This document shows, piece by piece, positions 42,614-58,265 of a stretch of DNA of 64,000 nt; the stretch's first letter is position 1, and every line of letters starts with the position of its first letter. The notes below the pieces were generated by a model. It was not told the origin of the DNA, ran no database searches, and worked only from the letters and a program-made list of their open reading frames with translations. The position numbers and the translations under genes were made by a program. Source of the DNA: Wocania arenilitoris (GTDB lineage: Bacteria; Bacteroidota; Bacteroidia; Flavobacteriales; Flavobacteriaceae); assembly GCF_021728535.1 (NCBI RefSeq), contig NZ_JAKKDU010000009.1, positions 1 to 64,000 on the forward strand, given 5' to 3'.

Positions 42614-43855
42614 TTATGCTTCATCTAATTGTTTTCCTTGTTTACTCATAGTTGCTGACACAAATGGAATATGAATACCTTTTATTAACATATTCCAATA
42701 AATCCATCTAAAAGCCATTTTTCCCATATGGTTTGTTCTACTTTCTTCTAACAATTTCAAAGGACCAACTCCAGGAAACGGAAATGTGCCTTTAACGGGT
42801 TCTTGATTATAATTAAAATCAATTAATAACGCTTTTCCTTCTCCAGTTTCAATAAAACAATTGGCATGACCATCAAATTCTTCTTTCAAAGGTTCTCCCT
42901 TTATAAAACGAAGTATGTTTTCTGTTAATATTTCTGCTTCAAAATGCGCTACAGATCCTGCTTTTGATGCTGGTAGATTTGTTGCATCACCAATAGCAAA
43001 AATATTTTCATAATCTTTGGTTTGCAATGTCGATTTATTTGTAGGAATATAATTTAAATCATCTCCCATACCAGAACGCTGAATAAGAGAATCTCCCATA
43101 TTTGTTGGAACAGTGACTAAAAGATCATACGCTACTTCAATATCTGCATAGTCAATTATTTTGTTATTCTCATAATCAATTCGTTCAATATTAAAATCGG
43201 TTACTTCTTTAATATCTTTTTCTTCTAGCAAATAATGAAGGGCTTCGGTAGCCTTTGGTTTAGTAAATGCACCATCTAAGGGGGTTACAAATGTAATATC
43301 AATCTTATCTCTAATCCCTTTATGCTTAAAATAAGAATCAGCTAAAAAAGCAAACTCTAATGGAGCTACAGGACATTTAATTGGCATTTCTGTAATATGA
43401 ACTACTAGTTTGCCCCCTTGCCAATCTCTTAGTTTATTTCGTAAGGCTTTGGCACCTTTATAAGTATAGAAATCGAATATAGATTTATGCCACTCCGGTC
43501 CACTCATACCTTCAGTTTCTTCAGGTGCTATATCAGTTCCAGTAGCAACAATCAATACATCATAATTTAAAACATCCCCATTACCTAAGATTACCTTATT
43601 TTCTTTTGGTTTGATTAGTTCAATTTTCTCTTGAATATAATTAACCTTTTTTGGAATAAACTTTTTACCGTTTTTCTTAATTTGCTTTGTTGTATAAATA
43701 TCAAAAGGAAGAAATAAAAAACCAGGTTGATAGTAATGTGTTTTATGCTGATCTATAATAGTAATCTTCCACTCTTTTTTGGGAAGTTTAGATACCAAAT
43801 GATTCGCCATCATAGTTCCTGATGTGCCTGCTCCTAATATTAGTAAACTTTTCAT
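42614..43855 (-). CDS. FAD-dependent sulfide:quinone oxidoreductase-like protein
   Basis: 413 residues. The N-terminal dinucleotide fold ILGAGTSGTMMANHL (5-19) and the second ATGTDIAPEE region are followed by VHITEMPIKCPVAPLEFAF (about 150-168), where the Cys fits the disulfide/sulfide-reactive position of SQR relatives. The C-terminal FAIGDATNLPASKAGSVAHF is the flavin-binding end with a membrane-associating tail. It probably oxidises sulfide or a persulfide at the membrane and passes electrons to quinone; its TusE and DsrE neighbours would take up the sulfur. Its promoter carries an Fnr-like site (43933-43944). Confidence 0.82.
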   Translation of the reverse strand: MKSLLILGAGTSGTMMANHLVSKLPKKEWKITIIDQHKTHYYQPGFLFLPFDIYTTKQIKKNGKKFIPKKVNYIQEKIELIKPKENKVILGNGDVLNYDVLIVATGTDIAPEETEGMSGPEWHKSIFDFYTYKGAKALRNKLRDWQGGKLVVHITEMPIKCPVAPLEFAFLADSYFKHKGIRDKIDITFVTPLDGAFTKPKATEALHYLLEEKDIKEVTDFNIERIDYENNKIIDYADIEVAYDLLVTVPTNMGDSLIQRSGMGDDLNYIPTNKSTLQTKDYENIFAIGDATNLPASKAGSVAHFEAEILTENILRFIKGEPLKEEFDGHANCFIETGEGKALLIDFNYNQEPVKGTFPFPGVGPLKLLEESRTNHMGKMAFRWIYWNMLIKGIHIPFVSATMSKQGKQLDEA

Positions 43856-43901: not shown

Positions 43902-43944
43902 CTAAATTAAATCAAATAACTTTTAAAAAACATGACAAAAATCA
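43902..43944 (-). promoter_or_regulatory. Crp/Fnr-like site and -7 box of the SQR operon
   Basis: TGACAAAAATCA (43933-43944) is a palindrome-like TGA-N6-TCA site. Exactly 33 bp downstream on the minus strand (centre to centre) lies TAATTTAG (43902-43909), five of six positions of TAnnTTTG. The start codon is at 43855. Confidence 0.65.
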
Positions 43945-43955
43945 TGAAAACCCTT

Positions 43956-43973
43956 GTGTAACAAAGGTTACAC
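43956..43973. promoter_or_regulatory. GTGTAAC-N4-GTTACAC palindrome
   Basis: A perfect 7-bp-arm palindrome GTGTAAC-AAAG-GTTACAC in the SQR/FadL divergent region. It recurs with one mismatch in the central 15 bases upstream of the TolC gene (47714-47727). It is similar to HcpR/Crp-type sites. Confidence 0.6.
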
Positions 43974-44005
43974 AAACAATTGTTATTTCAGGATTAATTA
44001 AAAGC

Positions 44006-44048
44006 TGACAAAAGTCATAATTAAAATTAGATCTTAATAGTAACTTTG
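44006..44048 (+). promoter_or_regulatory. Crp/Fnr-like site and -7 box of the FadL-type gene
   Basis: TGACAAAAGTCA (44006-44017), a perfect palindrome, and TAACTTTG (44041-44048, full TAnnTTTG) are 33 bp apart centre to centre, placing the site near -41.5. No TTG -33 box is present, as expected for a class II activated promoter. Confidence 0.75.
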
Positions 44049-44132
44049 ACTTACAACTATTTAACTTCTATATTCTGTAAAAATATTTTACTATTCTGAT
44101 TATTTTACAGAATGTTACTAAATATTTTAATT

Positions 44133-45476
44133 ATGAAAATTAATCTTATTAGTTATCTGTTTTTGCTGTTTAATACAGCAATTTTTTCGCAAGCTGGTCA
44201 TATTATGCAAGGCGTAGGTGCAACTAATATGTCTATGGGTGGAGCCTCAACTTCTCAACCATTAGACATTTCTGGAGCATTACACTGGAACCCCGCTTCT
44301 ACCTCGGTTTTTAATAACAAGATTATTAAACTTGATGTTGGCTTGTTTTTTTCTTCTCCAGAATTATCGTCTTCTATTGGATCTTTATCTGGTACTACAA
44401 AAGATGATAGAGGAGCCTCTCCTATGCCCGCGTTAGCCATAGTTTGGGGTAAAGCTGAAAGCAAACATACTTTTGGGGTTTCTGCATTTGGCATTAGTGG
44501 CTTTGGTGTAACCTTTCCAGAGGATTCAAACTATCCTCAAGATATGATAGGTACCCCAAACCCTAATTATAATTCAGCACAGTCTTCAAACCCTGTTAAT
44601 TTTCCACAAACGGCAGGTGGTTTTGGGCATATAGAATCTGATTATATTTTATTACAAATTGGACTATCTTATGCTTATGAAGTTACTAACAAACTATCTA
44701 TTGGTATACAACCAAATATAGATTATGCTACTTTAGAATTAATACCAAATCCAACAGCTAACCCGTCTCAAACGGCAGGATATCCATCAACAAACAAAGC
44801 CTCTGCAATAGGTTTTGGCACGCAATTTGGACTCTTTTATGATACTGGGGTTGGATTAAAAATGGGAACTTCTTACAAAACAACTCAAAAATTTAATGAC
44901 TTTAAATTTGATAACACCTATTTAGATAACTCAAAAAATAATAGCGAATTTCAAATGGACTATCCAGCTATTTTCTCTCTAGGACTTGGATACTCAACAG
45001 ATGTTTTCGATTTTGCTTTTGATTTTAGAAGAGTTGATTATGAAAACACTGATGGCTTCTCAAAAACAGGATGGACTCATACAGGTGCTGTCTCTGGTTT
45101 TGGTTGGAAGAATATTTCTATTATTTCAACTGGTTTTCAATATAAGGGGATTAACAAATTACCGTTACGTGTTGGATACACCTATAGTTCAAACCCTATT
45201 CCAGAAGAAGTGGTGTTTTTTAATGTGCCTGCTACAGCTATTATAAAAAATGCTTGCCAATTTGGGTTGAGCTATGCAGTAAATAGCACATGGAAAGTCG
45301 ATGCAGTTTATCATTATGGAGATAGTAACGGTAAAACAGAAGGTAAAATCCTATCTCCGTTTATGTCTTCTCAAAACAACCCTTTAGGCGCATTTCCAAA
45401 ATCATCTGTAACCTATAATATGACTACATCAATGTTACAATTTGGTATTAGTTATACTTTTACAAAAAAAAAGTGA
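44133..45476 (+). CDS. FadL/OmpP1-family outer-membrane transporter
   Basis: The start at 44133 is preferred (MKINLISYLFLLFNTAIFSQ); an ATG at 44112 overlaps a 10-bp inverted repeat. The mature N-terminus AGHIMQGVGATNMSMGGAST and the NPAS motif (ALHWNPAS) are the FadL hatch signature. The remainder is a 14-strand-type barrel ending GISYTFTKKK. FadL proteins pass hydrophobic compounds through the outer membrane. It is divergent from, and shares an activator-type promoter with, the SQR-like operon, so uptake of a hydrophobic sulfur compound is a possibility; this is inference. Confidence 0.88.
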   Translation: MKINLISYLFLLFNTAIFSQAGHIMQGVGATNMSMGGASTSQPLDISGALHWNPASTSVFNNKIIKLDVGLFFSSPELSSSIGSLSGTTKDDRGASPMPALAIVWGKAESKHTFGVSAFGISGFGVTFPEDSNYPQDMIGTPNPNYNSAQSSNPVNFPQTAGGFGHIESDYILLQIGLSYAYEVTNKLSIGIQPNIDYATLELIPNPTANPSQTAGYPSTNKASAIGFGTQFGLFYDTGVGLKMGTSYKTTQKFNDFKFDNTYLDNSKNNSEFQMDYPAIFSLGLGYSTDVFDFAFDFRRVDYENTDGFSKTGWTHTGAVSGFGWKNISIISTGFQYKGINKLPLRVGYTYSSNPIPEEVVFFNVPATAIIKNACQFGLSYAVNSTWKVDAVYHYGDSNGKTEGKILSPFMSSQNNPLGAFPKSSVTYNMTTSMLQFGISYTFTKKK

Positions 45477-45489
45477 TACAAATTTTTAA

Positions 45490-45936
45490 TAACAAATAAA
45501 AAGAAGGCTGTCTGAAAAGAGGGGACTGAAAAAGTAACATAAAAAACACAAGCAGTAAAACGTTGATTCAATCATAGTTTTTACTGCTTTTTCGCATCTT
45601 GATGTCCAGTCTAATATAGTAATTTCAATTTTTTTTAAGTAGCTATTATACATGACAAAAAAGACCCCCAAAATAAAAGGCGCCCCATCTTACCAATTTT
45701 TTAACCATTCCCCTTCAAAAAAAATGAACTTTTCGAACCAGAATTTTTTTTTGAAATGAATTCTCCTTTGTCAGGAGTATTTATCCTAGAAAAGCTTAAT
45801 AAATAAAATTTGTTAAATAAAAAATGTCCGAAGTTTATTTCTTAGCTGTTCCTATTAAATTACTTGATAATATTTAAGCTAGATAACCAATCTCGTGAAA
45901 AGTATCACGATAAATGACTCAATTCAAAACACAAAA
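45490..45936. other. Non-coding stretch between FadL and tRNA-Arg
   Basis: About 450 bases without a credible gene. Near its left end, GGCTGTCTGAAAAG (about 45508-45521) resembles insertion-sequence ends I have seen in Bacteroidota, but no partner end or transposase was found. A hairpin lies at 45550-45589; otherwise nothing was seen. Confidence 0.35.
45550..45589. terminator. Hairpin downstream of FadL
   Basis: AAGCAGTAAAA (45550-45560) pairs with TTTTACTGCTT (45579-45589), followed by a T run. It lies 75 bases after the FadL stop and may be its terminator. Confidence 0.5.
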
Positions 45937-45971
45937 AATCCCAATCGACTTGAAATCAGTTAATTGGGATT
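45937..45971 (-). terminator. tRNA-Arg terminator
   Basis: AATCCCAAT (45937-45945) and ATTGGGATT (45963-45971) make a perfect 9-bp stem. Read on the minus strand it is followed by TTTTT, just downstream of the tRNA. Confidence 0.75.
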
Positions 45972-45980
45972 AATAATTCG

Positions 45981-46054
45981 TGACCACGGCAGGATTCAAA
46001 CCTGCAACCTCTTGAGCCGTAATCAAGTGCGCTATTCAGTTGCGCCACGTGGCC
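45981..46054 (-). tRNA. tRNA-Arg (anticodon ACG)
   Basis: A 74-nt cloverleaf. The acceptor stem is GGCCACG/CGTGGTC with one G-U pair, the D arm is GCGCAACTGAATAGCGC, and the anticodon arm is CTTGA-TTACGGC-TCAAG giving ACG. The T arm is GCAGGTTTGAATCCTGC. CCA is not encoded. A terminator follows. Confidence 0.95.
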
Positions 46055-46228
46055 TTTTTTAAGTGGCTGCAAATATACATTTTTTATTAAAACACTACCA
46101 AACAATTTCTTTCAATTTCAATAAAATTTTGATTACTAATATTTACTGAAATAAAATAATCTATAAGTAACTAAAGCTACAATGTATCACTAAATAATAT
46201 ACTAATTTTAAGTTTTAATATTAGAAGA

Positions 46229-46691
46229 ATGAAAAAACTTGTATTCCCCTACTCCTTCTTTTTCTTAGTTTGTTTTTAAGTTGTAATAATTCTAATAAGT
46301 CAAATTATTCTATCAATAATAAACAGAATAAAGCTAACAACCTCCTGAAAAAAAATTAATGGAAACCAATTGCTATTTGTGCCATAGTCCTTCAGTGAAC
46401 CACGGTAACAGAATAGCACCGCCAATGATAGCCATAAAAAAGCACTATATAGATGATGCTACACAAAAGAACAATTTATTGAATCGTTACAAGCTTGGAT
46501 TAAAAAAAACCAAATGATAAAAATGCTAAATGTTCGGAGCTGCAAGAAGGTTTGGTGTAATGCGCAAAACACCTTACCCTGAAGAAACCATTCGACAAAT
46601 TACAGACTATATGTTCCACAATAATAATAAACACCCGGATTGGTTTGAAGATTATTTTAACGAGAAAAAAGGAAAGCAACAGGGTAAATAA
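46229..46691 (+). pseudogene. Broken c-type cytochrome lipoprotein
   Basis: The reading can be followed across three frames. It begins MKKLVFPYSFFFL with a lipobox-like LSLFLSC after a frameshift, then a stop, then METNCYLCHSPSVNHGNRIA with a haem-c site CYLCH. A further shift near 46480 leads to KTPYPEETIRQITDYMF and a stop at 46691. At least three lesions disrupt it. The original was a small monohaem cytochrome c of the cell envelope. It is the first of three decayed genes downstream of the tRNA. Confidence 0.8.
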
Positions 46692-46714
46692 CAGGAAAAG
46701 GCAAGAAAAACAAT

Positions 46715-47234
46715 ATGAGTAAAAAACACATGCAAACAAACTTTAAAGATTTACCATATGCTGAACGAGGTTTAAAATATGCTCTTTCAACAAAAGCAAT
46801 ACTTGGAAAGAATTTAATGGGTACCACTCAAAAAAAAGGAACATTAAAGCTATAGCATTTTGTAATGAACGCGCATACCCATTAACAGATAGTATGACTA
46901 AGATGCATAATACTTTTATAAAACGAGTTTCAAATAAACCAAGAAATAATAACAATACCGCTAACCCTGAAGAGTTGGACTATATTAAAATTTTAATGAA
47001 GTAATTTCTAATAATAATGAACCAAAACCTGTTGTTAAAGAAATAGAATATAGCATACTTGTTTACTATCCAATAGTTACAAACGCAATGTGTTTTCAAT
47101 GTCATAAAAAAACAAGTGAATCTTTAGAAATAACCTCTTTAGATAAACTGAAAAAACTATATCCGATTTACAAAGCAATTAGATATGATATTAATAAAGT
47201 AAAGGGAATTTGGCGTATTAGTTTTACTAAGTAA
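46715..47234 (+). pseudogene. Broken DUF3365 haem-domain protein
   Basis: DUF3365-like pieces lie in successive frames: KDLPYAERGLKYALSTKAIL, then after a frameshift AIAFCNERAYPLTDSMTKMH and RVSNKPRN, then after another VYYPIV-like VYYPIVTNAMCFQCH with the haem motif CFQCH, ending KGIWRISFTK. Two frameshifts (near 46850 and 47003) interrupt it. Such domains bind haem c in redox sensing or transfer. It decayed together with the cytochrome upstream. Confidence 0.8.
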
Positions 47235-47281
47235 AATTAAGAATGATAATTTGATAAATTTTCATCTAAGTTGTTACATGC

Positions 47282-47293
47282 TGACAAATATCA
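47282..47293. promoter_or_regulatory. Degraded Fnr-like site
   Basis: TGACAAATATCA matches the TGA-N6-TCA pattern of the sulfur promoters, upstream of the decayed small membrane gene. No well-spaced -7 box remains. Confidence 0.3.
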
Positions 47294-47346
47294 TATTTCA
47301 TAATACCTAATTAATACTTTCAGCCTAGTTAAAAAAATATATAATT

Positions 47347-47496
47347 ATGATAACTAAAAACATAGTATTGTTCGACTAGAGAAATGGTGTATTAATAATA
47401 GCTGTTTTTGCACTTGCTTGTTTATTCCTTATTGATTTTTTAGTAAAATTTATGATGAGTGGTAATAAGGGTAGTGATGAGACAAAGAAAAGGTAA
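47347..47496 (+). pseudogene. Small membrane protein interrupted by an in-frame TAG
   Basis: MITKNIVLFD, then TAG, then RNGVLIIAVFALACLFLIDF and a basic tail ending KGSDETKKR. Without the stop it would be a 49-residue single-span protein. The frame is otherwise open and its codons remain sensible, so the loss looks recent. It lies beside the decayed cytochrome genes and may have belonged to them. Confidence 0.55.
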
Positions 47497-47503
47497 TAAA
47501 TAA

Positions 47504-47618
47504 CCCTCGAGGCAAGCCCACGAGGTATTCAACGGAGAAAAATTTATTTTTAGTTTGATGAAATCATTAGGTTTTCAAACTTTCGTCTTTTGCCCACGAG
47601 GTAAGCCTCGGAGAATTC
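47504..47618. repeat. Pair of CCTCGAGG/CGAGG hairpin repeats
   Basis: Two G+C-rich units flank about 60 A+T-rich bases: CCTCGAGGCAAGCCCACGAG (from 47505) and CCCACGAGGTAAGCCTCGGA (from 47593). Each folds into a CCTCG/CGAGG stem. They are similar to short repeats seen between genes in flavobacteria. Function unknown. Confidence 0.5.
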
Positions 47619-47665
47619 TTTTAGATTAAAAAAACGCCATTCTTATGATTTGGTTTGATGATGAG

Positions 47666-47693
47666 CATTCTGTAAAAGGAGTGCTTTTTTTAT
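47666..47693 (+). terminator. Terminator before the efflux operon
   Basis: AGCATTC (47666-47672) pairs with GAGTGCT (47681-47687, one wobble), followed by seven T. It insulates the TolC promoter from upstream transcription. Confidence 0.6.
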
Positions 47694-47713
47694 ATAAGTG
47701 ATTGTTTTAGTAA

Positions 47714-47757
47714 GTAACATAGGTTACATATTTCCCTATTAGCTAGATGTATTTTTG
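47714..47757 (+). promoter_or_regulatory. Crp-like site and -7 box of the TolC-RND operon
   Basis: GTAAC-ATAG-GTTAC (47714-47727) is centred 33 bp upstream of TATTTTTG (47750-47757), a full TAnnTTTG. The spacing equals that of the TGA-N6-TCA promoters. The start codon follows at 47777. Confidence 0.7.
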
Positions 47758-47776
47758 CGCTATAAATTTTTAATCA

Positions 47777-49087
47777 ATGAAAAACAAGATTCATATCGCA
47801 CTAGTGCTTCTGTTTTCTGGACATACATTTTTAATAGCTCAAGTTATAGTACCTATTACCAAAACAGAGGTTTTGTATAAAGTACTTGAAGGAAATACTA
47901 GTATTAAAATTTCTAAAGAAGAATTTAAACAAGCTCGAGCAGATTACAGACAAACAAACGCTGTGTTTTTACCAAATATTACTGCAAGTCATACAGCAAT
48001 AGCAACTACTAATCCGTTAATGGCTTTTGGCTCTAAACTAAATCAGGAAATTTTAACGCAAAACGATTTTAATTCTACATTGTTAAACAATCCATCTCAA
48101 ATTGAAAATTTCGCAACAAAACTTGAAATTCAGCAACCTTTAATTAATCTAGAAAGTATGTTTCAACGAAAAGCTTCCAAATCTAAAATGGAGGCTATGG
48201 CTTTAAAAACAGAACGCACGCAAGATTATTTATCCTTAGAAGTAGATAAGGCTTACATGCAATTACAATTAGCTTATAAAGCGGTTGATGTATTAGAAAA
48301 AGCACTAGAAGCTGCTAATGCCAACAAAAATTTAGCAGATGATAGTTTTAAACAAGGCTATTTACAACGCGCCGATGTTCTTAATGTAGAAGTACGCGTA
48401 ACCGAAGTTCAGAACCAGTTACAAATGGCAAAAAGTAACGTGCGAAACGCATCAAATTATTTGTCTTTTTTAATGAATGATGAAAGATTTGTTGTTTACG
48501 TGTCAACAGAAGAATTAACTGTATCTGCCTCTACTTTGGAAGACAAAACAGTTTCAGAAAACCGTTCAGATATTAAAGCGATGCAATTTACATCAAACGC
48601 TTTTGAAGCCATGAATAAAGCAGATAAAATGGCATTCCTACCAAAATTAAATGCCTTCGGTAGTTATGAGATGTATGACGATCAAATATTCCAAGCAAAT
48701 GCTAATGGCTATTTATTTGGAGCACAAATAAGTTGGGATATTTTTCAAGGCTCTAAACGTTTTGGAAAAACACAAAAGAGCAAAGCAGAATTCGAAAAAT
48801 CTAAGCTAGAATATAAGCAATATGTATCACAAAGTCAATTAGAATTAAATAAAGTAAAACGCGCATTTTTAGATGCAGAAAACAAATTAAAACTTACTGA
48901 ATTAGCATTACAACAATCAGATGAATCTTTACGAATACGAACAAACAGATTTAAAGAAGGTTTAGAAAAAACATCCGATTTATTAATGGCAGAAACACAA
49001 TACGCCCAAAAACAATTAGAATATTATCAAACGATTTTTGAATACAATTATACACAAGCGTATTTACATTTTTTAACTAAAGAATAA
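47777..49087 (+). CDS. TolC-family outer-membrane efflux channel
   Basis: 436 residues with a signal peptide (to IAQ). The two OEP repeats are visible: long helices with QARADYRQTNAVFLPNITAS and, in the second half, EYKQYVSQSQLELNKVKRAF. It forms the outer-membrane tunnel of a tripartite pump. It is the first gene of an operon with the adaptor (8-base gap) and RND transporter, under a Crp-like class II promoter. Confidence 0.93.
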   Translation: MKNKIHIALVLLFSGHTFLIAQVIVPITKTEVLYKVLEGNTSIKISKEEFKQARADYRQTNAVFLPNITASHTAIATTNPLMAFGSKLNQEILTQNDFNSTLLNNPSQIENFATKLEIQQPLINLESMFQRKASKSKMEAMALKTERTQDYLSLEVDKAYMQLQLAYKAVDVLEKALEAANANKNLADDSFKQGYLQRADVLNVEVRVTEVQNQLQMAKSNVRNASNYLSFLMNDERFVVYVSTEELTVSASTLEDKTVSENRSDIKAMQFTSNAFEAMNKADKMAFLPKLNAFGSYEMYDDQIFQANANGYLFGAQISWDIFQGSKRFGKTQKSKAEFEKSKLEYKQYVSQSQLELNKVKRAFLDAENKLKLTELALQQSDESLRIRTNRFKEGLEKTSDLLMAETQYAQKQLEYYQTIFEYNYTQAYLHFLTKE

Positions 49088-49095
49088 TTTTTAAA

Positions 49096-50172
49096 ATGAA
49101 AAAAACATATACAATCCTAACACTCTTGGTAACACTAATATTATCAAATTGTGAAAGCGAAGACAAAAATAACGTTGCTAATAATTCACCAGCAATTATT
49201 ATTAAAGTAAACCAAGTGGAAGCAAGTGGAAATAGTCCGTTTTTATCTGCTAGCGGAAAAATACAAGCTAAAAATAGTGCCGATTTAAGCACTAGAATGA
49301 TGGGATACGTTAATAAAGTACATGTAAATGTTGGAGACCAAGTGAGCAAAGGGCAATTATTAGTATCTATTAATAATGCCGATTTACAAGCTAAAAAAGC
49401 ACAAGTCAATGCCAGAATTACCGAGGCTACAGCTGCTTTTAACAATGCCCAAAAAGATTATAACCGTTTTAAAAACTTATTTGCAAGCAGTAGTGCATCA
49501 CAAAAAGAAATGGACGATATTACCGCTAATTTTGAAATAGCTAAAGCACGTTTAGAAGCTGCAAACCAAATGAAAAACGAAATTAAGGCACAATTTACAT
49601 ACAGTAATATTTCTGCTCCTTTTAACGGTATTATTACTAGCAAAAATGTAAAAGTTGGTGATATGGCAAATCCTGGAATGCCCTTAATAAGCATAGAAAC
49701 ACCAGATGTTTTCGAAGTGATGGCTATGGTGCCTGAAACAGAAATTTCAAGCATTAAAACAGGAATACCCGTTAATGTTTTGGTGAAATCCGTCAACAAA
49801 ACTCTTAAAGGAAAGGTGACAGAAGTAAGTTCATCTGCAAAAAATACAGGAGGGCAATATTTAGTTAAAATAGATTTAGACAGAACAGAAACCAATATTT
49901 TATCTGGCATGTTTGCTACCGTACAATTTTCAGTAGAAAAGAAAACTAAATCACCTATGGTTTTAATACCTCAAGACGCTATTGTAACAAATGGGCAACT
50001 ATCTGGAGTTTATACTGTAAGCCAAAGCAATACAGCCTTGTTACGTTGGCTGCGTTTAGGCAGAACATTTGGTAATCAAATAGAAGTATTATCTGGATTA
50101 AAAGCAGACGAAGCTTACATTGTTTCTGCCGAAGGAAAATTGTTTAATGGCGCAAAAGTAAGTGTTCAATAA
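49096..50172 (+). CDS. RND efflux periplasmic adaptor (membrane fusion) lipoprotein
   Basis: The lipobox TLILSNC anchors the protein (Cys19). The barrel-sandwich segment VHVNVGDQVSKGQLLVSIN (about 76-94) and the hairpin helices precede the beta-barrel FNGIITSKNVKVGDMANPG. The C-terminal membrane-proximal region ends EVLSGLKADEAYIVSAEGKL. It bridges the RND pump and the TolC channel. 358 residues, as expected. Confidence 0.93.
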   Translation: MKKTYTILTLLVTLILSNCESEDKNNVANNSPAIIIKVNQVEASGNSPFLSASGKIQAKNSADLSTRMMGYVNKVHVNVGDQVSKGQLLVSINNADLQAKKAQVNARITEATAAFNNAQKDYNRFKNLFASSSASQKEMDDITANFEIAKARLEAANQMKNEIKAQFTYSNISAPFNGIITSKNVKVGDMANPGMPLISIETPDVFEVMAMVPETEISSIKTGIPVNVLVKSVNKTLKGKVTEVSSSAKNTGGQYLVKIDLDRTETNILSGMFATVQFSVEKKTKSPMVLIPQDAIVTNGQLSGVYTVSQSNTALLRWLRLGRTFGNQIEVLSGLKADEAYIVSAEGKLFNGAKVSVQ

Positions 50173-50279
50173 GCAGTTGCATTTACCATTATCCATTTAA
50201 GATTGAAAATATAAGTATTAACTAATAAATATCCCCTAATAATTTTTCCTCTTTGGGAAAATTTAAAGGAACTTTAATT

Positions 50280-53200
50280 ATGAAAGAAGGAATCGCAGGT
50301 AAAATTGCTAAAATCTTTATACAATCGAAGTTAACAGTTTTGTTAATGATTGTTTTTATGGTAGTTGGTGTATATAGTTCGTTTTTAATTCCGCGAGAGG
50401 AAGAGCCACAAATTAATGTACCTATGGCCGACATTTTTGTGGGGTATCCTGGAGCAAGCCCTACGGAAGTAGAATCTCGCGTTATTAAGCCTTTAGAGCA
50501 ACTCATTTCGAATATTAGAGGTGTAGAATATGTTTATTCTACAGCTATGAAAGAGCAAGGTATGGTAATCGTGCAGTTCTATGTTGGTGAAGATATTGAG
50601 CGTAGTTTCGTAAAACTTTACAACGAAATTAATAAACACATGGACGAAATGCCTGCAGGTGTAACATTTCCATTGGTTAAAACACGTGCCATTGACGATG
50701 TGCCGATGTTAGGCTTAACCTTATGGAGTAAAAACTACGACGATTACCAATTAGGCCAAATAGCACAAGAGCTTGAAGCTGAAATTAAAAAGATAAACGA
50801 TGTAGCCATAACTCATAAAATTGGCGGAAGAAATCGCCAATTACGTGTAGTTTTAGATAAAGACAAACTGGCCGCAAGTGGACTAGATTTCTTGATGGTT
50901 TCTGAAATGATTAACGCCAACAACAGTCAATTAAACTCAGGGAGTTTTGATAAGAATGACACCGAATTTTTAGTAAATACCGGAAAGTTTTTAGAATCGG
51001 TTGCCGATGTAGAGAATTTGGTGGTTGGTGTACAACAAAATCAGCCTATTTATTTAAAGCAAATCGCTACTATTATTGACGGACCAGAAGTACCACAAAA
51101 CTATGTAAGTTTAGGCTTTGGTAAAGGCAGTGAAAAAGCTTCAGAATACCAATCTGAGTATCCTGCAGTTACCATTTCTGTTGCTAAAAGAAAAGGTGCT
51201 GATGCCATGAAAATTGCCGAAGTTATTATTGATAAAGTATCACATCTTCGAAAAACTTTAATCCCAGATGATGTCCATGTTCAAATTACAAGAAACTATG
51301 GTGAAACGGCTTCACACAAAGTATCAGAATTGCTCTTACATCTTATAGGATCTATTATTGCCGTTACTATTGTGGTTATGCTAGCCATGGGTTGGCGAGG
51401 AGGATTGGTTGTGTTTTTATCTGTACCCATTACGTTTGCTTTGACACTTTTGAGTTACTATATGTTGGATTACACATTAAACCGAATTACCCTATTTGCT
51501 TTAGTTTTTGTAACCGGAATTGTGGTGGATGACTCCATAATTATTGCCGAAAATATGCACAGGCATTTCAAAATGAAGCGCTTGCCTTTTAAACAGGCTG
51601 CATTATATGCTATAAACGAAGTTGGAAATCCAACCATTTTAGCAACATTTACCGTAATAGCATCCGTTTTACCTATGGCGTTTGTTTCTGGATTAATGGG
51701 GCCATATATGGCACCAATGCCCATTGGAGCTTCCATTGCAATGATATTATCCTTATTCGTAGCGTTAACAATTACACCTTATTTAGGTTATATTTTCTTG
51801 AAAGAAAAAGATAAAAAAGGCGTTGAAGATAAACCAGAAAAAGCAATTGAGGACATCCTTATTTATAGAATATATAACAAGTATGAAAGACCATTATTAG
51901 AAAGCAAAGCAAAACGTTGGATGTTTTTAGGAGGAACATTTTTGTTATTAATAGGAACCATGGTTTTATTTTTTACAAAATCGGTTGCAGTAAAAATGCT
52001 GCCTTTTGATAATAAAAATGAATTCCAAGTAGTCATAGACATGCCTGAAGGCACAACATTAGAAAGAACTGGTGTTGTTGCTCAAGAAATTGCTCAGTTT
52101 TTATCAACAAGACCAGAAGTAGTGAATTATCAAAACTACATTGGCACCTCAGCACCAATAACCTTTAATGGACTGGTACGTCATTATGATTTACGTGGCG
52201 GAAGCAATATGGCCGATATTCAGGTAAACTTATTGGACAAAAAAGAACGCTCTTCTCAAAGTCATGATATTGCTAAGTTATTGCGCCCAGACATTCAAAA
52301 AATAGCTTCAAAATATAATGCAAACGTGAAGTTAGTTGAAGTACCTCCAGGACCTCCGGTTTTATCAACAATAGTAGCAGAAGTTTATGGTCCCGAGTAT
52401 AACAAGCAAATTGAAATTGCAAACAGCATAAAAGGTATCTTGAAAAGCACCAACGATGTTGTGGACATCGATTGGATGGTAGAAGCGGATCAGACCGAAT
52501 ATCAATTCGAAATTAACAAAGAAAAAGCGATGTTATATGGAGTTACTCCACAACAAATAGTTTATACCATGAATATAGCTCTGTCTAACAGAATGCTAAC
52601 AAACTTATATGATGAAGATGCTGTTAATCAAGTTGCTTTATTGTTAGCTTTAGATGAAAAAGAAAAATCTACAATTAATGATATTTCACAATTAAAGGTA
52701 AAATCTAAACAAGGTAATATGGTGCCAATTTCAGACTTGGTAAAGATTTCTGAAACAACCACTGCAAAAAATATTTACCGTAAAAACCAAAAACGTGTAG
52801 TCTACGTCATGGCAGACATGGCTGGAGAATTGGAAAGTCCTGCGTATGCCATTTTAGGCATGGAAGAAAAATTGAAAGACATTCCATTACCAATAGGTTA
52901 CGAGATTAACGAAATGTATTTAGGTCAGCCAGATTTTGAAGATAATTACACTGTAAAATGGGATGGCGAATGGCAAATCACCTTAGAGGTATTTAGAGAT
53001 TTAGGCATCGCATTTTTAGGAGCTATTATTCTTATTTACATTTTAATTGTAGGATGGTTTCAAAATTTTAAAGCACCAATAGTTATGATGGTGGCTATAC
53101 CGTTATCCTTAATCGGAATTATTTTAGGGCACTGGCTCATGGGCGCTTTTTTTACAGCTACGTCTTTTATTGGAATGATTGCTTTGGCAGGAATTATGGT

Positions 53201-53474
53201 AAGGAATTCGGTATTACTCATTGACTTCATCAACTTACGAACTGCAGAAGGGGTTCCGCTAAAACAAGCCGCAATTGAAGCTGGAGCAGTACGTACAACA
53301 CCCATTCTGTTAACAGCAGGTACGGTTGTAATTGGAGCGTTTGTTATACTTTTTGACCCTATATTTCAAGGGTTAGCTATATCGCTAATGGGAGGCACTA
53401 TAGTTTCAACAGTTTTAACCTTATTGGTTGTACCACTTGTTTATTATATGATAGAGAAAAAAAATTATAAATAA
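50280..53474 (+). CDS. RND-family efflux transporter (AcrB/CzcA-like)
   Basis: The ATG at 50280 (MKEGIAGKIAKIFIQSKLTV) is preferred over an upstream TTG. About 1064 residues with twelve membrane helices in two halves, large periplasmic loops, and the HAE1-like signature GASPTEVESRVIKPLE near 66-81. The helix-4 region LFALVFVTGIVVDDSIIIAE carries the proton-relay Asp pair. The substrate is unclear: the Asp-Asp pair and adjacent PII-like gene would suit metals or hydrophobic compounds. Promoter shared with TolC. Confidence 0.94.
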   Translation: MKEGIAGKIAKIFIQSKLTVLLMIVFMVVGVYSSFLIPREEEPQINVPMADIFVGYPGASPTEVESRVIKPLEQLISNIRGVEYVYSTAMKEQGMVIVQFYVGEDIERSFVKLYNEINKHMDEMPAGVTFPLVKTRAIDDVPMLGLTLWSKNYDDYQLGQIAQELEAEIKKINDVAITHKIGGRNRQLRVVLDKDKLAASGLDFLMVSEMINANNSQLNSGSFDKNDTEFLVNTGKFLESVADVENLVVGVQQNQPIYLKQIATIIDGPEVPQNYVSLGFGKGSEKASEYQSEYPAVTISVAKRKGADAMKIAEVIIDKVSHLRKTLIPDDVHVQITRNYGETASHKVSELLLHLIGSIIAVTIVVMLAMGWRGGLVVFLSVPITFALTLLSYYMLDYTLNRITLFALVFVTGIVVDDSIIIAENMHRHFKMKRLPFKQAALYAINEVGNPTILATFTVIASVLPMAFVSGLMGPYMAPMPIGASIAMILSLFVALTITPYLGYIFLKEKDKKGVEDKPEKAIEDILIYRIYNKYERPLLESKAKRWMFLGGTFLLLIGTMVLFFTKSVAVKMLPFDNKNEFQVVIDMPEGTTLERTGVVAQEIAQFLSTRPEVVNYQNYIGTSAPITFNGLVRHYDLRGGSNMADIQVNLLDKKERSSQSHDIAKLLRPDIQKIASKYNANVKLVEVPPGPPVLSTIVAEVYGPEYNKQIEIANSIKGILKSTNDVVDIDWMVEADQTEYQFEINKEKAMLYGVTPQQIVYTMNIALSNRMLTNLYDEDAVNQVALLLALDEKEKSTINDISQLKVKSKQGNMVPISDLVKISETTTAKNIYRKNQKRVVYVMADMAGELESPAYAILGMEEKLKDIPLPIGYEINEMYLGQPDFEDNYTVKWDGEWQITLEVFRDLGIAFLGAIILIYILIVGWFQNFKAPIVMMVAIPLSLIGIILGHWLMGAFFTATSFIGMIALAGIMVRNSVLLIDFINLRTAEGVPLKQAAIEAGAVRTTPILLTAGTVVIGAFVILFDPIFQGLAISLMGGTIVSTVLTLLVVPLVYYMIEKKNYK

Positions 53475-53626
53475 TAACTTGTATGGTTGAGCACGATAGG
53501 GACCTATAACTAAATTGATATAAAATTAAATAACAATGAAACATCCATGTCTAATTTTTAGACACACAGCGGAATGATTATTTAGGATGTTACATGTGAC
53601 CGTTGAATAACAATAAATATAAACAC

Positions 53627-53932
53627 ATGAAATTAGTCATCGTTACAGCAGTAGAGCAGTTTCAAAAAGATGTTTTGAAACTTTTTAAGAAAGCAAATAT
53701 TGAAAACTTTAGTAGTTCGGAAATTGATGGATACAAAAGTGGCACCTCATTATTAATGGCCTCTAATTGGTTTTCAGGTAAAAAAGGAAGTAATGAATCA
53801 AGTCTATTTTTTTCATTTACAGAAGACAAAAACATTGATGCATTATTCCATTTAATTAAAAAATTTAATACAAACTTAGAAACTAATAATCCCTTAAGAG
53901 CGGTTGTAGTTCCTATTGAAAAAATTATATAA
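53627..53932 (+). CDS. PII-like/DUF3240-type ferredoxin-fold protein
   Basis: The ATG at 53627 (MKLVIVTAVEQFQKDVLKLF) gives 101 residues. The alternating strand-helix pattern MKLVIVTAVEQ, ENFSSSEIDGYK and PLRAVVVPIEKI fits the PII/CutA-like superfamily; DUF3240 members commonly accompany metal RND pumps. It lies 150 bases after the RND gene. It could act as a sensor or chaperone for the pump. Family assignment is tentative. Confidence 0.6.
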   Translation: MKLVIVTAVEQFQKDVLKLFKKANIENFSSSEIDGYKSGTSLLMASNWFSGKKGSNESSLFFSFTEDKNIDALFHLIKKFNTNLETNNPLRAVVVPIEKII

Positions 53933-53951
53933 TCTTAAAAAATTAAGTAAA

Positions 53952-54137
53952 ATGTTAAATACATATTTTAGAGTAATTGTTGGTTTTATGATACTATTAA
54001 GTGTAGTTCTAACCGTGTTTTTACATCCAAATTGGGTTTGGTTTACAGTATTTATTGGCGTAAATATGATGCAATCGGCGTTCACAAAATGGTGTTTATT
54101 AGAAACTATATTGCAAAAATTAGGAGTAAAAAAATAA
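53952..54137 (+). CDS. DUF2892 (YgaP-like) inner-membrane protein
   Basis: The ATG at 53952 (MLNTYFRVIVGFMILLSVVL) is chosen. 61 residues with two membrane helices, and FIGVNMMQSAFTKWC, which matches the DUF2892 membrane module found fused to rhodaneses in YgaP. It sits within the sulfur-related gene run. Often a partner of rhodanese or sulfur-transfer proteins; role unproven. Confidence 0.8.
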   Translation: MLNTYFRVIVGFMILLSVVLTVFLHPNWVWFTVFIGVNMMQSAFTKWCLLETILQKLGVKK

Positions 54138-54237
54138 GATCTGCGCCCGTACTTCTTTATAATCAGCAATTATATTACTACGTTTGTTATTAAACCCAAA
54201 TAATAATTTAATACATTTTAAATTGTTATTTTTGGGT

Positions 54238-54867
54238 ATGGATTATAATTTATTACAACAAAAGTTTTCCCATATTTTTGATAACGAATTAATAGTTGAA
54301 ATTTCAAAAAAAGGGATATTTAAAAACTTCAAGAAAGATGATATTATAATTGATATTGATCAACCATTAAATTTCATTCCTTTATTACTAGTTGGAGATA
54401 TCAAAATCATTAGAGAAGATGATGATGGCAATGAAATTCTTATATATTTTCTTGAAGCTGGGGAGACTTGCACTATGTCTCTAACATGCTGCTTGGGTAT
54501 CGCAAAGAGTAAAATTAGAGCTGTAGCCGAAAAAGACTCTAGTTTAATTATGATTCCTGTTGATAATATGCAAAAGTGGTTTGACAGTAATGCTAGTTGG
54601 AGAAACTTTATTTTACAAAGCTACCAAATTCGCTTTGAAGAAATGCTTGAAGCTATAGATAGTCTTGCCTTTATGAAAATGGATGAACGTTTATACAAAT
54701 ATCTAAAAAACATGGCTATGATTGATGAATCTAATACCATATTCATAAAACATCAAGATATTGCCGAAGATTTAAATACTTCTCGTGTGGTTATCTCTAG
54801 ACTTTTAAAGAAATTAGAGAACGAACGTAAAATTAAATTGGGACGAAATAAAATAGTTATGATATAA
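54238..54867 (+). CDS. Crp/Fnr-family transcriptional regulator
   Basis: The ATG at 54238 (MDYNLLQQKFSHIF) is chosen. An N-terminal cyclic-nucleotide-binding-like beta-roll contains AGETCTMSLTCCLG (about 79-92), whose three Cys may sense redox or sulfane sulfur. The C-terminal HTH has the helix SRVVISRLLKKLE, close to the FNR recognition helix around ISRLL. 209 residues. It lies between the YgaP-like gene and the YeeE/YedE transporter genes, and is the only Crp/Fnr protein in the window; it may bind the TGA-N6-TCA promoters listed here. Confidence 0.92.
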   Translation: MDYNLLQQKFSHIFDNELIVEISKKGIFKNFKKDDIIIDIDQPLNFIPLLLVGDIKIIREDDDGNEILIYFLEAGETCTMSLTCCLGIAKSKIRAVAEKDSSLIMIPVDNMQKWFDSNASWRNFILQSYQIRFEEMLEAIDSLAFMKMDERLYKYLKNMAMIDESNTIFIKHQDIAEDLNTSRVVISRLLKKLENERKIKLGRNKIVMI

Positions 54868-54960
54868 GTTTTTCACTTTTAAAAGGTCTTTTTTCGTTCA
54901 TTAAAATTCTTAAAAAAGTTTTTAATACCACAATTAACACGTAAAAAGTAAACTTCAATG

Positions 54961-54968
54961 TAAATTTG
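54961..54968 (+). promoter_or_regulatory. -7 box of the YeeE/YedE operon
   Basis: TAAATTTG fits TAnnTTTG, 16 bases before the start codon at 54985. No TTG -33 element; a weak TTAAT-N6-ATTAA palindrome is centred 35 bp upstream, so activation is possible. Confidence 0.5.
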
Positions 54969-54984
54969 CATACAAACATTAAAT

Positions 54985-55542
54985 ATGAATTATATATTAA
55001 ACCCATGGCCTTGGTATATTTCAGGTCCGCTTATTGCCTTAGTTATGGCGCTCCTACTCTACTTTGGTAAAACATTTGGTATGTCTTCAAATTTAAGAAC
55101 CATGTGTACTATTGCTGGAGCAGGTAAATTTGTTGATTTTTTCAATTTTAGCTGGAGAGATCAAATTTGGAATTTAACCGTAGTGTTTGGCTCAATAGTT
55201 GGTGGCTACATTGCTGTTAACTTTCTATCCAATGATGCTAGGACAGATTTAAATCCAACAACAATAACAGAACTACAAAATATAGGATTTAATAACCCAG
55301 GAAAAACACTAGTGCCAAACGAAATTTTCGATTTAGATGTTTTAGTATCTCCTAAAGCCTTAATAATTATCGTTTTAGGCGGTTTGCTGGTTGGTTTCGG
55401 TACACGCTATGCCAATGGCTGTACATCTGGGCATGCCATAACAGGTTTAAGCAGCTTACAAAAACCCTCTTTAATTGCTGTTATTGGCTTTTTTATTGGA
55501 GGTCTTATTATGGTTAATTTCATTTTACCCTTAATATTTTAA
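54985..55542 (+). CDS. YeeE/YedE-family sulfur-compound transporter, first half
   Basis: 185 residues with about four or five membrane helices. The family Cys motif ANGCTSGHAITGLSSLQ (near 145) is present, as in the thiosulfate channel YeeE. It is followed after 3 bases by a second short family member, so the two probably make a two-part channel. Likely carries thiosulfate or a related sulfur species into the cell. Confidence 0.88.
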   Translation: MNYILNPWPWYISGPLIALVMALLLYFGKTFGMSSNLRTMCTIAGAGKFVDFFNFSWRDQIWNLTVVFGSIVGGYIAVNFLSNDARTDLNPTTITELQNIGFNNPGKTLVPNEIFDLDVLVSPKALIIIVLGGLLVGFGTRYANGCTSGHAITGLSSLQKPSLIAVIGFFIGGLIMVNFILPLIF

Positions 55543-55545
55543 ATT

Positions 55546-55959
55546 ATGAAGTTTCTAAAATTTTTATTAGTTGGTATTTTCTTCGGAATTGTATTAGTAA
55601 AATCCGAAGCCGTTTCTTGGTACCGTATTTACGAGATGTTTCGTTTCCAGTCTTTTCATATGTATGGTATTATTGGCACCGCAATAGCGACAGGTATTCT
55701 TTTTTTACAAATCTCCAAAAGAGGTTACATAAAAAGCATCAAAGGCGCTAATATTTTTGTTCCTAAAAAAGAAAACGGTCTTATTAGATATATTGTTGGC
55801 GGCACCATTTTTGGTTTAGGATGGGCGCTAATAGGCGCTTGCCCAGGGCCTATGTACATTTTATTAGGTACAGGTATTTACAGTATGCTTATTGTAATAG
55901 CTGCAGCTTTACTGGGCACATTCATTTATGGTGCTTTAAAAGTCAAACTACCTCACTAA
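55546..55959 (+). CDS. YeeE/YedE-family sulfur-compound transporter, second half
   Basis: 137 residues, four membrane helices, with the second family motif LIGACPGPMYILLGTG (near 100). The Cys of GACPGP mirrors the CTSGH Cys of the preceding protein; in single-chain homologues both lie on one polypeptide. Abuts the TauE/SafE gene (next start directly after its stop). Confidence 0.88.
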   Translation: MKFLKFLLVGIFFGIVLVKSEAVSWYRIYEMFRFQSFHMYGIIGTAIATGILFLQISKRGYIKSIKGANIFVPKKENGLIRYIVGGTIFGLGWALIGACPGPMYILLGTGIYSMLIVIAAALLGTFIYGALKVKLPH

Positions 55960-56760
55960 ATGGATAACACCCAACTCCTTGGATATATTGGCGCTTTAAT
56001 AGTAGGATTAGTTTTAGGGCTAATTGGTGGCGGTGGTTCAATACTTACCGTACCTTTATTAGTTTACTTATTAGGCTACAACCCAATTGTTGCAACCGCA
56101 TATTCGTTATTTGTTGTTGGTGCAACATCAATGGTTGGCACATTCCAAAAATATCAAAAAGGTTTAGTTGATTTTAAAACAGGGTTAGCATTTTCATTTC
56201 CTTCATTTTTAGCAGTTTATTTATCTCGACGATATTTAGTACCTAGAATTCCAGATACCCTTTTTAGTATTAATAATTTTTCTTTAACTAAAGAAATGGG
56301 CATCATGGTATTTTTTGCCATTATTATGCTTTTAGCTTCCATTTCAATGATTAAAAAGAAAAAAGAAATAGATGCAATTCCAGAAAAACAAGCTTATTAC
56401 AAAACCTTTATACAAGGATTAATAATTGGAACAATAACAGGATTAATAGGCTCTGGCGGTGGTTTTTTATATGTTCCTGCACTTGTAATTTGGGCAAATA
56501 TCCCCATGAAAAAAGCAGTAGGTACCTCGTTAATTATAATCACTATTAATTCACTAATTGGGTTTACAGGCGATATGCAAACACTAGAAATTGATTGGGT
56601 TTTTCTACTTTTATTTACTTTTATATCTGTAATAGGAATTATACTAGGTGTTTTCCTTTCAAAATTTATAAGTGGTAATAAGCTTAAAAAGAGCTTTGGT
56701 TTTTTTACATTAATTATGGCTATTTATATTATATACAAAGAAACTAATTTATTAATGTGA
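55960..56760 (+). CDS. TauE/SafE-family sulfite/sulfonate exporter
   Basis: 266 residues with seven or eight membrane helices. The repeated glycine-rich motifs LGLIGGGGSILTVPLLVYLL (about 19-38) and GLIGSGGGFLYVPALV (about 160) are typical. It exports or imports small organosulfur anions such as sulfite. It starts on the base following the YeeE/YedE stop. Its last codons overlap the Fnr-like site of the next promoter. Confidence 0.9.
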   Translation: MDNTQLLGYIGALIVGLVLGLIGGGGSILTVPLLVYLLGYNPIVATAYSLFVVGATSMVGTFQKYQKGLVDFKTGLAFSFPSFLAVYLSRRYLVPRIPDTLFSINNFSLTKEMGIMVFFAIIMLLASISMIKKKKEIDAIPEKQAYYKTFIQGLIIGTITGLIGSGGGFLYVPALVIWANIPMKKAVGTSLIIITINSLIGFTGDMQTLEIDWVFLLLFTFISVIGIILGVFLSKFISGNKLKKSFGFFTLIMAIYIIYKETNLLM

Positions 56761-56800
56761 TAAAAGTCACAAACGAAACCATTTAGGTTTTATATTTTTG
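56758..56800 (+). promoter_or_regulatory. Crp/Fnr-like site and -7 box of the MBL-rhodanese gene
   Basis: TGATAAAAGTCA (56758-56769, extended TGTGA/TCACA arms) lies 33 bp centre to centre upstream of TATTTTTG (56793-56800, full TAnnTTTG). The start codon is at 56853. The site overlaps the end of the TauE gene. Confidence 0.75.
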
Positions 56801-56852: not shown

Positions 56853-58265
56853 ATGAAAATAGAACAAATTTATACAGGCTGCTTAGCTCAAGGCGCTTAT
56901 TACATCGAATCTAATGGCGAGGTTGCAATAATTGACCCATTGCGCGAAACCCAGCAATACGTTGATAAAGCTAATAAAGAAAATGCAAAAATTAAATATA
57001 TTTTTGAAACACATTTTCATGCAGATTTTGTTTCTGGCCACGTCGATCTAGCAAAAAAAACAGGCGCAACAATTATTTTTGGTCCTGGTGCTACAACCGA
57101 ATATGACATTCATGAAGCTGAGGACAATGAAACCTTCAGACTAGGCAATGTAACTATTAAAGTTTTGCACACGCCAGGGCATACCTTAGAATCTACTACC
57201 TTTCTTTTAATTGATGAAAACGGGAAAAATCACGCCATTTTTTCAGGAGACACCTTATTTTTAGGTGATGTTGGACGACCAGATTTAGCCATAAAATCAG
57301 ACCTCACTAAAGAAGATTTAGCAGGTATGTTATACGAATCGTTGCGTAATAAAATAATGCCTTTAGAAGATGATGTTATAGTTTATCCAGCTCACGGTGC
57401 AGGTTCGGCTTGTGGTAAAAATTTAAGCAAAGAAACTGTTGGTGTTCTTGGTGAGCAGAAGCAAACTAATTATGCATTACGAGAAGATATGACTAAGGAA
57501 GAGTTTGTAGAAGAAGTGCTTGATGGTATTCCACCGCCACCACAATATTTTGCAAAAAATGCCATGATGAACAAATCTGGCTACGATAATTTTGAAACGG
57601 TTTTGCAAAAGGGAGATGTAGCTTTAAGTGCTGAAGATTTTGAAATCACTGCCAATCAAGAAGACGCTTTAGTGCTTGATGTTAGAAACGAAAAAGACTT
57701 TGTAAATGGCCACATACCAAACTCCATATTTATTGGTATTCATGGTGGGTTTGCTCCATGGGTTGGTGCATTAATTACCGATTTAAAACAGCCCATTTTA
57801 CTAGTTACACCACAAGGAAAAGAAAAAGAAACTGTAACGCGATTATCTCGTGTTGGTTACGATAATACTTTGGGCTATTTAGATGGCGGTATTGAAGCAT
57901 GGAAAAAATCTGGTAGAGATATAGAAACAATTGAGTCTATAACTGCCGAAGAGTTTTCTAAACATTATAAAAGCAGCAACATTAACACACTTGATGTTAG
58001 AAAAGAGGGTGAATACAAAGCTGAACATTTAGATGGCGATAATGTGCAACACTTTGCATTAGATTTTATTAATGATAACATGAATGCCATTGATAACCAT
58101 AAAACATATTACATGCATTGCGCTGGTGGTTACCGCTCTGTTATTGCAGCATCTATTTTAAAGGCTCGTGGATTTGATAAATTGATAGATATTGCTGGTG
58201 GATTTGATGCCATTAAGAAAACTGATTTACCTACTACAAATTTTATTTGTCCTTCAAGATTATAA
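56853..58265 (+). CDS. MBL-fold persulfide dioxygenase-like protein with two rhodanese domains
   Basis: 470 residues. The N-terminal metallo-beta-lactamase domain has the iron/zinc motif THFHADF (53-59) and later VYPAHGAGSACGK, as in persulfide dioxygenases (ETHE1/Blh type). Two rhodanese modules follow. The first (about 273-358) keeps LDVRNEKDFVNGHIPNS but has no active-site Cys. The second has Cys423 in HCAGGYRS and should be active. The protein would oxidise a thiol persulfide to sulfite and pass sulfane sulfur. It is followed after 2 bases by a heavy-metal-domain gene. Confidence 0.92.
   Translation: MKIEQIYTGCLAQGAYYIESNGEVAIIDPLRETQQYVDKANKENAKIKYIFETHFHADFVSGHVDLAKKTGATIIFGPGATTEYDIHEAEDNETFRLGNVTIKVLHTPGHTLESTTFLLIDENGKNHAIFSGDTLFLGDVGRPDLAIKSDLTKEDLAGMLYESLRNKIMPLEDDVIVYPAHGAGSACGKNLSKETVGVLGEQKQTNYALREDMTKEEFVEEVLDGIPPPPQYFAKNAMMNKSGYDNFETVLQKGDVALSAEDFEITANQEDALVLDVRNEKDFVNGHIPNSIFIGIHGGFAPWVGALITDLKQPILLVTPQGKEKETVTRLSRVGYDNTLGYLDGGIEAWKKSGRDIETIESITAEEFSKHYKSSNINTLDVRKEGEYKAEHLDGDNVQHFALDFINDNMNAIDNHKTYYMHCAGGYRSVIAASILKARGFDKLIDIAGGFDAIKKTDLPTTNFICPSRL

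Follow-up and report, generated by a model that had tools for sequence, protein, structure and literature searches.

Two Crp/Fnr paralogs probably divide and share a sulfur locus in Wocania arenilitoris

The window analysed here is a stretch of 64,000 nucleotides from Wocania arenilitoris (Flavobacteriaceae; contig NZ_JAKKDU010000009.1, positions 1 to 64,000), and it contains a sulfur locus with genes for a sulfide:quinone oxidoreductase (SQR), a FadL-type transporter, a Crp/Fnr regulator (REG) and a protein of the persulfide dioxygenase type (PDO). Three similar palindromes precede SQR, FadL and PDO, and the question is whether one activator serves all of them, as a preliminary description had proposed. 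The answer reached here is that two Crp/Fnr paralogs with distinct but similar 14-base-pair (bp) operators near -41.5 would divide and share the locus, a reading given a probability of about 0.74. The three look-alike sites are regarded as two types, because their outer pairs split by gene and the two classes track different regulators: class A at SQR and FadL tracks FNR-like proteins in 149 genomes of the family, and class B at PDO tracks REG. The proposal of one regulator for all three sites is therefore not supported.

The three 12-mers, variants of TGAY-N4-RTCA, lie where they were first described. The centre of each is 33 bp from the centre of a box, and this geometry is conserved in relatives. 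The FadL and PDO boxes match TAnnTTTG exactly (TAACTTTG and TATTTTTG), and the SQR box (TAATTTAG) has one mismatch. By eye, no TTG element at -33 is present at the three sites of the window, as noted before. In the transcriptome map of Flavobacterium psychrophilum, TAnnTTTG occupies -12 to -5 (PMC9723704), so the sites would be centred near -41.5. SQR and FadL have one divergent intergenic region in common. Class A (ATGAY-N4-RTCAT) precedes SQR and, less perfectly, FadL, and similar sites precede ccoN, ccoI and hemN. Class B (GTRAY-N4-RTYAC, ideally GTAAC-N4-GTTAC) precedes PDO. Through two class B palindromes missed earlier, which start at 43958 and 47714, REG is also linked to the SQR-FadL region and to the efflux genes. 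From the earlier proposal of one class II Crp/Fnr activator, the conserved operator set with class II-type spacing is retained; the single regulator gives way to two site classes.

Comparison of orthologous promoters supported both the geometry and the division. In 19 of 21 genomes the region upstream of SQR has a class A core and, at a gap of 22, a box that differs from TAnnTTTR in one base at most; the exceptions are G125 and G007 (G and L numbers denote genomes and loci). G007 has weaker FNR-like homologs and no FNR ortholog at E<=1e-40, and carries GTAACAAAAGTTAC at the class A position. The FadL sites of six relatives were exact class A in three, CTGA..TCAT in one and one half of each class in two; a seventh match (G125) was too close to the locus edge for scoring. 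All of the 30 closest PDO matches have a core site, at a gap of 22 in 26 and of 21 in four, which follows GTRAY-N4-RTYAC with exceptions. Of the 26 PDO sites at gap 22, 22 have G..C as their outer pair, versus none of 23 ccoI-side sites (Fisher 4e-10), where this pair is A..T in 21 and C..T in two; four of 30 PDO rows and seven of 30 ccoI-side rows had no scored site. The ccoI-side sites, on the other side of fnr, share ATGAY-N4-RTCAT.

The proposed coupling of motif and box was also recovered across the genome, where TGAYN4RTCA followed after 23 bp by TAnnTTTG (0-1 mismatch) occurs at 21 places, seven of them exact, versus 10 in the control. These places include the upstream regions of a COX1-type oxidase (ccoN), a copper-ATPase (ccoI) beside a Crp/Fnr gene, a radical-SAM protein (hemN), a cytochrome c gene, OmpW, a universal stress protein (Usp), an HPF-type protein and a CBS protein; the remainder are unrelated or inside genes. 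The labels ccoN, ccoI and hemN were read from the sequences, the identity of ccoI being checked in the W. arenilitoris genome only. The ccoN site (C33:221604) and the SQR site are an identical double-stranded 12-mer.

Five cNMP-domain proteins are encoded in the W. arenilitoris genome. The Crp/Fnr protein at C33:224147-224821 has an N-terminal CxxC and a TESAIR helix, and is therefore FNR-like. It resembles FNR in this CxxC, which is conserved, in the Glu and Arg of the recognition helix and in the TGA..TCA sites before ccoN, ccoI and hemN; it lacks the third-cysteine spacing of E. coli FNR. Its cysteines C4, C7, C53, C59 and C106 are present in 28 of 30 aligned rows and C29 in 27, two rows being gapped. 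This global protein most likely binds ATGAY-N4-RTCAT and would activate SQR, FadL, ccoN, ccoI and hemN.

Scanning the 149 genomes for class A with a box gave 581 places, spread over 118 genomes, and the reversed control gave a single match in the whole set. It is present in 85 of 91 genomes with an FNR ortholog (E<=1e-40) and in 33 of 58 without (Fisher 1e-7). FNR-like homologs at E<=1e-20 exist in 33 of these 58 genomes; with them counted, class A with a box is present in 114 of 124 genomes with and four of 25 without (Fisher 2e-14), a cut-off that was chosen after the first result, and the presence calls depend on such E-value cut-offs. The four are G023, G048 (82% complete), G086 and G147 (73% complete). 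Many genomes that lack an FNR ortholog by the stricter cut-off (E<=1e-40) still have class A sites. Many of the 33 genomes with weaker homologs have frames of about 350-370 amino acids (aa) with an FNR-type C-terminus, and those of L260, L266 and L268 have, by eye, a response-regulator receiver-like N-terminus. In several relatives without the ortholog, the FNR-like protein differs from FNR in its longer N-terminus.

These results bear on the view that REG alone serves all three sites as one class, with irrelevant outer bases. The three cores are alike and class B palindromes also occur at SQR-FadL, as this view expects; however, the SQR sites match those of ccoN, ccoI and hemN, the distribution of class A with a box over the 149 genomes follows that of FNR-like proteins, and the outer pairs differ by gene, which makes it very improbable. 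REG, named earlier as the candidate regulator, likely acts at PDO, not at all three sites.

The dependence of class B on REG was seen at PDO itself. Within 1,100 bp upstream of PDO, class B sites occur in 55 of 74 genomes with REG versus one of 16 without (Fisher 5e-7; shuffles 17/1800), in a set of 90 of the 135 PDO genomes made up of the 30 closest matches and 60 hand-picked ones, the few REG-less genomes being deliberately included; the PDO region of G079 ended early at a contig end. In the 16 REG-less genomes the PDO sites were class A-like in four (G141, G148, G096 and weakly G052), class B in one, tied in one and absent in ten. The density of GTAACN4GTTAC was 1.92 per megabase (Mb) in 109 genomes with REG versus 0.88 in 13 without (p 3e-5; genomes of at least 2.5 Mb). 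More distant family genomes often have GTAAC-N4-GTTAC, before TauE, PDO and 575-aa proteins that are presumably SulP-like.

The spacing of class B is also fixed. In the neighbourhoods of 20 relatives and the window, gaps of 8 to 44 were scanned, and 80 strand-counted class B palindromes had an exact box at gap 22 in 29 cases, at gap 21 in three and at the other 35 gaps in none. The same 21 neighbourhoods hold 50 palindromes of the class A form but few class A promoters with exact boxes, which explains why a single exact box was seen, at gap 37. In 80 named REG loci, which overlap the relatives' genome set, 236 class B palindromes had boxes at gap 21 (19), gap 22 (56) and the other 35 gaps (6); 56 of the 80 loci carry a class B site whose box lies at gap 21-23. 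The targets of the 75 boxed sites were PDO (32), PmpA (16), TauE (13), TolC (3), REG (1) and others (10). A class B site precedes TolC in the TolC-headed runs of the window, G132 and G121. Among 18 other close relatives a site precedes PmpA in 16 (weaker in G125), G034 and G133 being the two without. REG most likely binds GTRAY-N4-RTYAC. In the window it would activate PDO and the genes headed by TolC, a same-strand series that includes the pump, REG itself and the two YeeE halves, and its targets in relatives would be PmpA, TauE and SulP-like genes. Beyond the family the breadth of class B is suggestive: among 28 loci from distant genomes (L372-L399, some within the family), 16 combine a class B site with a box that deviates at one position or none.

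Could the FNR-type protein alone control all three promoters, with REG acting elsewhere? The TGA/TCA halves of the PDO site would fit, and so would the four class A-like PDO sites in REG-less genomes. Nevertheless, PDO sites drift to GTAATATAAGTTAC (G044, G145 and G017), in which TGA is lost and G..C kept; G036, with FNR-like homologs and no FNR ortholog at E<=1e-40, keeps GTAACAAATGTCAC at PDO; and the presence of class B at PDO depends on REG. Control by the FNR-type protein alone is very unlikely.

The features of REG are consistent with its pairing to class B. It matches PF00027 (cNMP_binding) and PF13545 (HTH_Crp) above the Pfam cut-offs, and its structural model has the Crp fold. A fold search with the model gave a Thermus Crp protein and 3dv8 as best matches, with NtcA in the top 50. 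REG scores 44.8 against a cut-off of 244.95 in the NCBIfam model of NtcA, below the level of family membership; as for FNR features, it has no Cys before residue 78, and Val184 stands where FNR has Glu. The helix SRVV[IV]SR has invariant S, R, V, V, S and R in 30 aligned REG sequences, and TSRVVISR of REG aligns with and resembles STRVTVTR of NtcA. The NtcA consensus is GTAN8TAC near -41.5 (PMC3898017), a pattern that GTAAC-N4-GTTAC fits. REG thus resembles this cyanobacterial CRP-family nitrogen regulator in fold, helix and predicted site; it differs in its putative targets, which concern sulfur rather than nitrogen, its conserved cysteine loop and its phylum. Cys78 and Cys84 are invariant in all 30 sequences and Cys85 is present in at least 90%; residues 81-85 form a loop of low confidence in the model. 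Judging from these cysteines and the gene content, the signal might be a persulfide or polysulfide on Cys78/Cys84. REG-like proteins occur in 133 of the 149 family genomes at E<=0.001, in 120 at E<=1e-40 and in 68 of 198 phylum genomes at E<=1e-25. In some distant homologs (8 loci) Glu replaces Val184.

REG might instead be a repressor, with the palindromes at -41.5 blocking the polymerase, and the known sulfane-sulfur regulators BigR, SoxR and sHdrR are indeed repressors. However, repression usually uses an operator overlapping the box, whereas the present sites stand at a fixed distance from it, and by eye no -33 TTG is seen at the three of the window. Moreover, a site at -41.5 is where class II activators such as NtcA (PMC3898017) act. 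A repressor role is accordingly considered unlikely.

Under the preferred reading of two paralogs, the SQR-FadL region and PDO are the places where the two proteins would meet. In 15 of 21 genomes the 400 bp preceding SQR contain an exact class B site, versus 38 of 4200 shuffles. Both classes are present in 14 SQR regions, and in 8 of them 26 or 27 bp separate the two centres. This distance corresponds to roughly 2.5 turns and would place the two proteins on opposite faces of the DNA. The upstream class B palindrome may allow REG to act at SQR-FadL. The PDO operator in the close clade appears to have drifted to GTGAC-N4-GTCAC, keeping the outer G..C of REG and gaining the TGA..TCA core of FNR. 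Among A/G half-sites of this clade, the third base is G in 25 of 39 at PDO versus 4 of 38 at TolC/PmpA (p 1e-6), largely in the same genomes. This excess looks like selection for recognition by FNR besides REG, that is, a hybrid operator. Since such an operator has features of both classes, a single motif was seen at first. Tandem PDO duplicates were also observed beside the regulator in L171, L186 and L187 (G114, G105 and G113), with a clear class B site at one copy and not at the other.

Several observations weigh against the two-paralog reading. The bare class B palindrome is not over-represented: GTAACN4GTTAC occurs 848 times versus 1333 in the control of the 149 genomes (above the control in 42, equal in 9 and below in 98) and 5 versus 4 times in W. 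arenilitoris, and GTRACN4GTYAC occurs there 6 versus 6 times. Two of these six are in the sulfur locus (43958-43971 and 47714-47727); of the four outside, three are inside reading frames and one is, by eye, beside a transposase-like sequence. Class A with a box persists in the 33 of 58 genomes lacking a strict FNR ortholog, and the ccoI-side boxes mostly have one mismatch. Neither class was found near the examined PDO copy in 17 of the 74 REG-containing genomes, and two others are exceptional there (G008 with class A, G125 tied). G147 (73% complete) has no REG match and a class B site at SQR, and in 24 of the 80 named REG loci no class B site is paired with an exact box. A covariation of residue 184 (Val or Glu) with the operator was striking at first in distant homologs and proved not significant (3 E-type sites, p 0.36). 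The kinship among the genomes makes them non-independent, so the p-values are optimistic. The pairing of proteins with sites is deduced from comparative genomics, and activation and oxygen as the FNR signal are inferred.

For TGAYN4RTCA the bare motif was likewise not enriched, with 19 in the genome versus 18 in the reversed control. As bare palindromes are not enriched, only spacing, conservation and presence or absence carry the weight of proof; these, like the site sequences themselves, were observed directly. The same null counts are what would be expected if common palindromes had arisen by chance in AT-rich intergenic DNA, yet the fixed gap, the conservation and the co-occurrence with regulators leave this explanation a negligible probability.

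The coordinates of the sites and genes are collected in Table 1, in which the names PmpA and PmpB are assumed.

Table 1. Regulatory sites and genes of the sulfur locus in the window.
Feature	Position	Strand	Remark
Class A (FNR-type) site ATGATTTTTGTCAT, SQR operon, -41.5 (predicted)	43932-43945	-	window letters
SQR -7 box TAATTTAG, one mismatch to TAnnTTTG	43902-43909	-	relatives mostly TAnnTTTA
Class B palindrome GTAACAAAGGTTAC, SQR-FadL intergenic, 26 bp upstream of class A centre	43958-43971	.	missed in preliminary description
FadL site CTGACAAAAGTCAT, class A with one mismatch; box TAACTTTG at 44041-44048	44005-44018	+	
Class B site GTAACATAGGTTAC, 50 bp before TolC; box TATTTTTG at 47750-47757	47714-47727	+	missed in preliminary description
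PDO operator GTGATAAAAGTCAC, class B outer pair, TGA/TCA core; box TATTTTTG at 56793-56800	56757-56770	+	
DsrE/DsrF-like protein, Pfam DrsE_2	41785-42258	-	domain search
DsrC/TusE-like protein	42282-42590	-	domain search
SQR, NF049943, type III, selenoprotein subtype model	42614-43855	-	
FadL/TodX-type outer membrane transporter	44112-45476	+	domain search
TolC-like outer membrane efflux protein, heads same-strand run to sulfur genes	47777-49087	+	
HlyD/CusB-like membrane fusion protein	49096-50172	+	
RND efflux pump, ACR_tran	50253-53474	+	scanned from 50280
Local Crp/Fnr regulator REG, 209 aa, recognition helix TSRVVISR	54238-54867	+	
YeeE/TsuA-like half transporter, Sulf_transp (presumably PmpA)	54985-55542	+	
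Second half transporter, DUF6691/Sulf_transp (presumably PmpB)	55546-55959	+	
TauE/SafE exporter	55960-56760	+	domain search
MBL-fold and rhodanese protein, persulfide dioxygenase type (PDO)	56853-58265	+	putative function, from domains

Two small frames separate the RND pump from the regulator: one (53627-53932) encodes a protein with no Pfam match, and the other (53916-54137) is hydrophobic; in G113 a similar small protein precedes the transporter genes. Decayed frames between FadL and TolC (46230-47240) contain, on inspection by eye, the haem-type motifs CYLCHSP and CFQCHKK and seem to form a pseudogene for a cytochrome-like protein. A further TGACAAATATCA site adjoins this region (47282-47293); no box was seen by eye at the proper distance, and the site is possibly a relic FNR promoter.

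Control of sulfide and persulfide oxidation is known chiefly from regulators of the ArsR (SqrR/BigR), CsoR (CstR) and sigma-54 (FisR) types, which act on SQR/PDO-type genes and several of which are repressors. REG is a Crp/Fnr protein, whereas these regulators have other folds. In F. psychrophilum the cbb3 oxidase and heme genes rise at low oxygen (PMC9723704); the main text of that paper has no occurrence of 'Fnr' or 'Crp'. In the text seen of PMC8510549, Crp homologs of the Flavobacteriales are handled as MalR-like, with no mention of rhodanese and one of sulfur. In literature searches at the level of titles and abstract openings, no description of REG or of the class B operator was recognised.

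A broader proposal, which is possible and put forward with some doubt, is an undescribed regulon of the Flavobacteriaceae whose regulator would have relatives in other classes of the phylum. Here an NtcA-like Crp/Fnr activator would sense sulfane sulfur through its cysteine loop, bind GTAAC-N4-GTTAC at -41.5, and control persulfide oxidation, thiosulfate-type transport and in some genomes an RND pump; oxygen would be joined via FNR, by paired operators at SQR and a hybrid PDO operator recognised by both proteins. With a REG homolog in 120 of the 149 family genomes (E<=1e-40), a Crp/Fnr sulfur activator could be the main switch of this kind in a large bacterial group. The locus would also illustrate how two paralogs can separate, or deliberately share, operators whose main differences are the outer pair and the third base.

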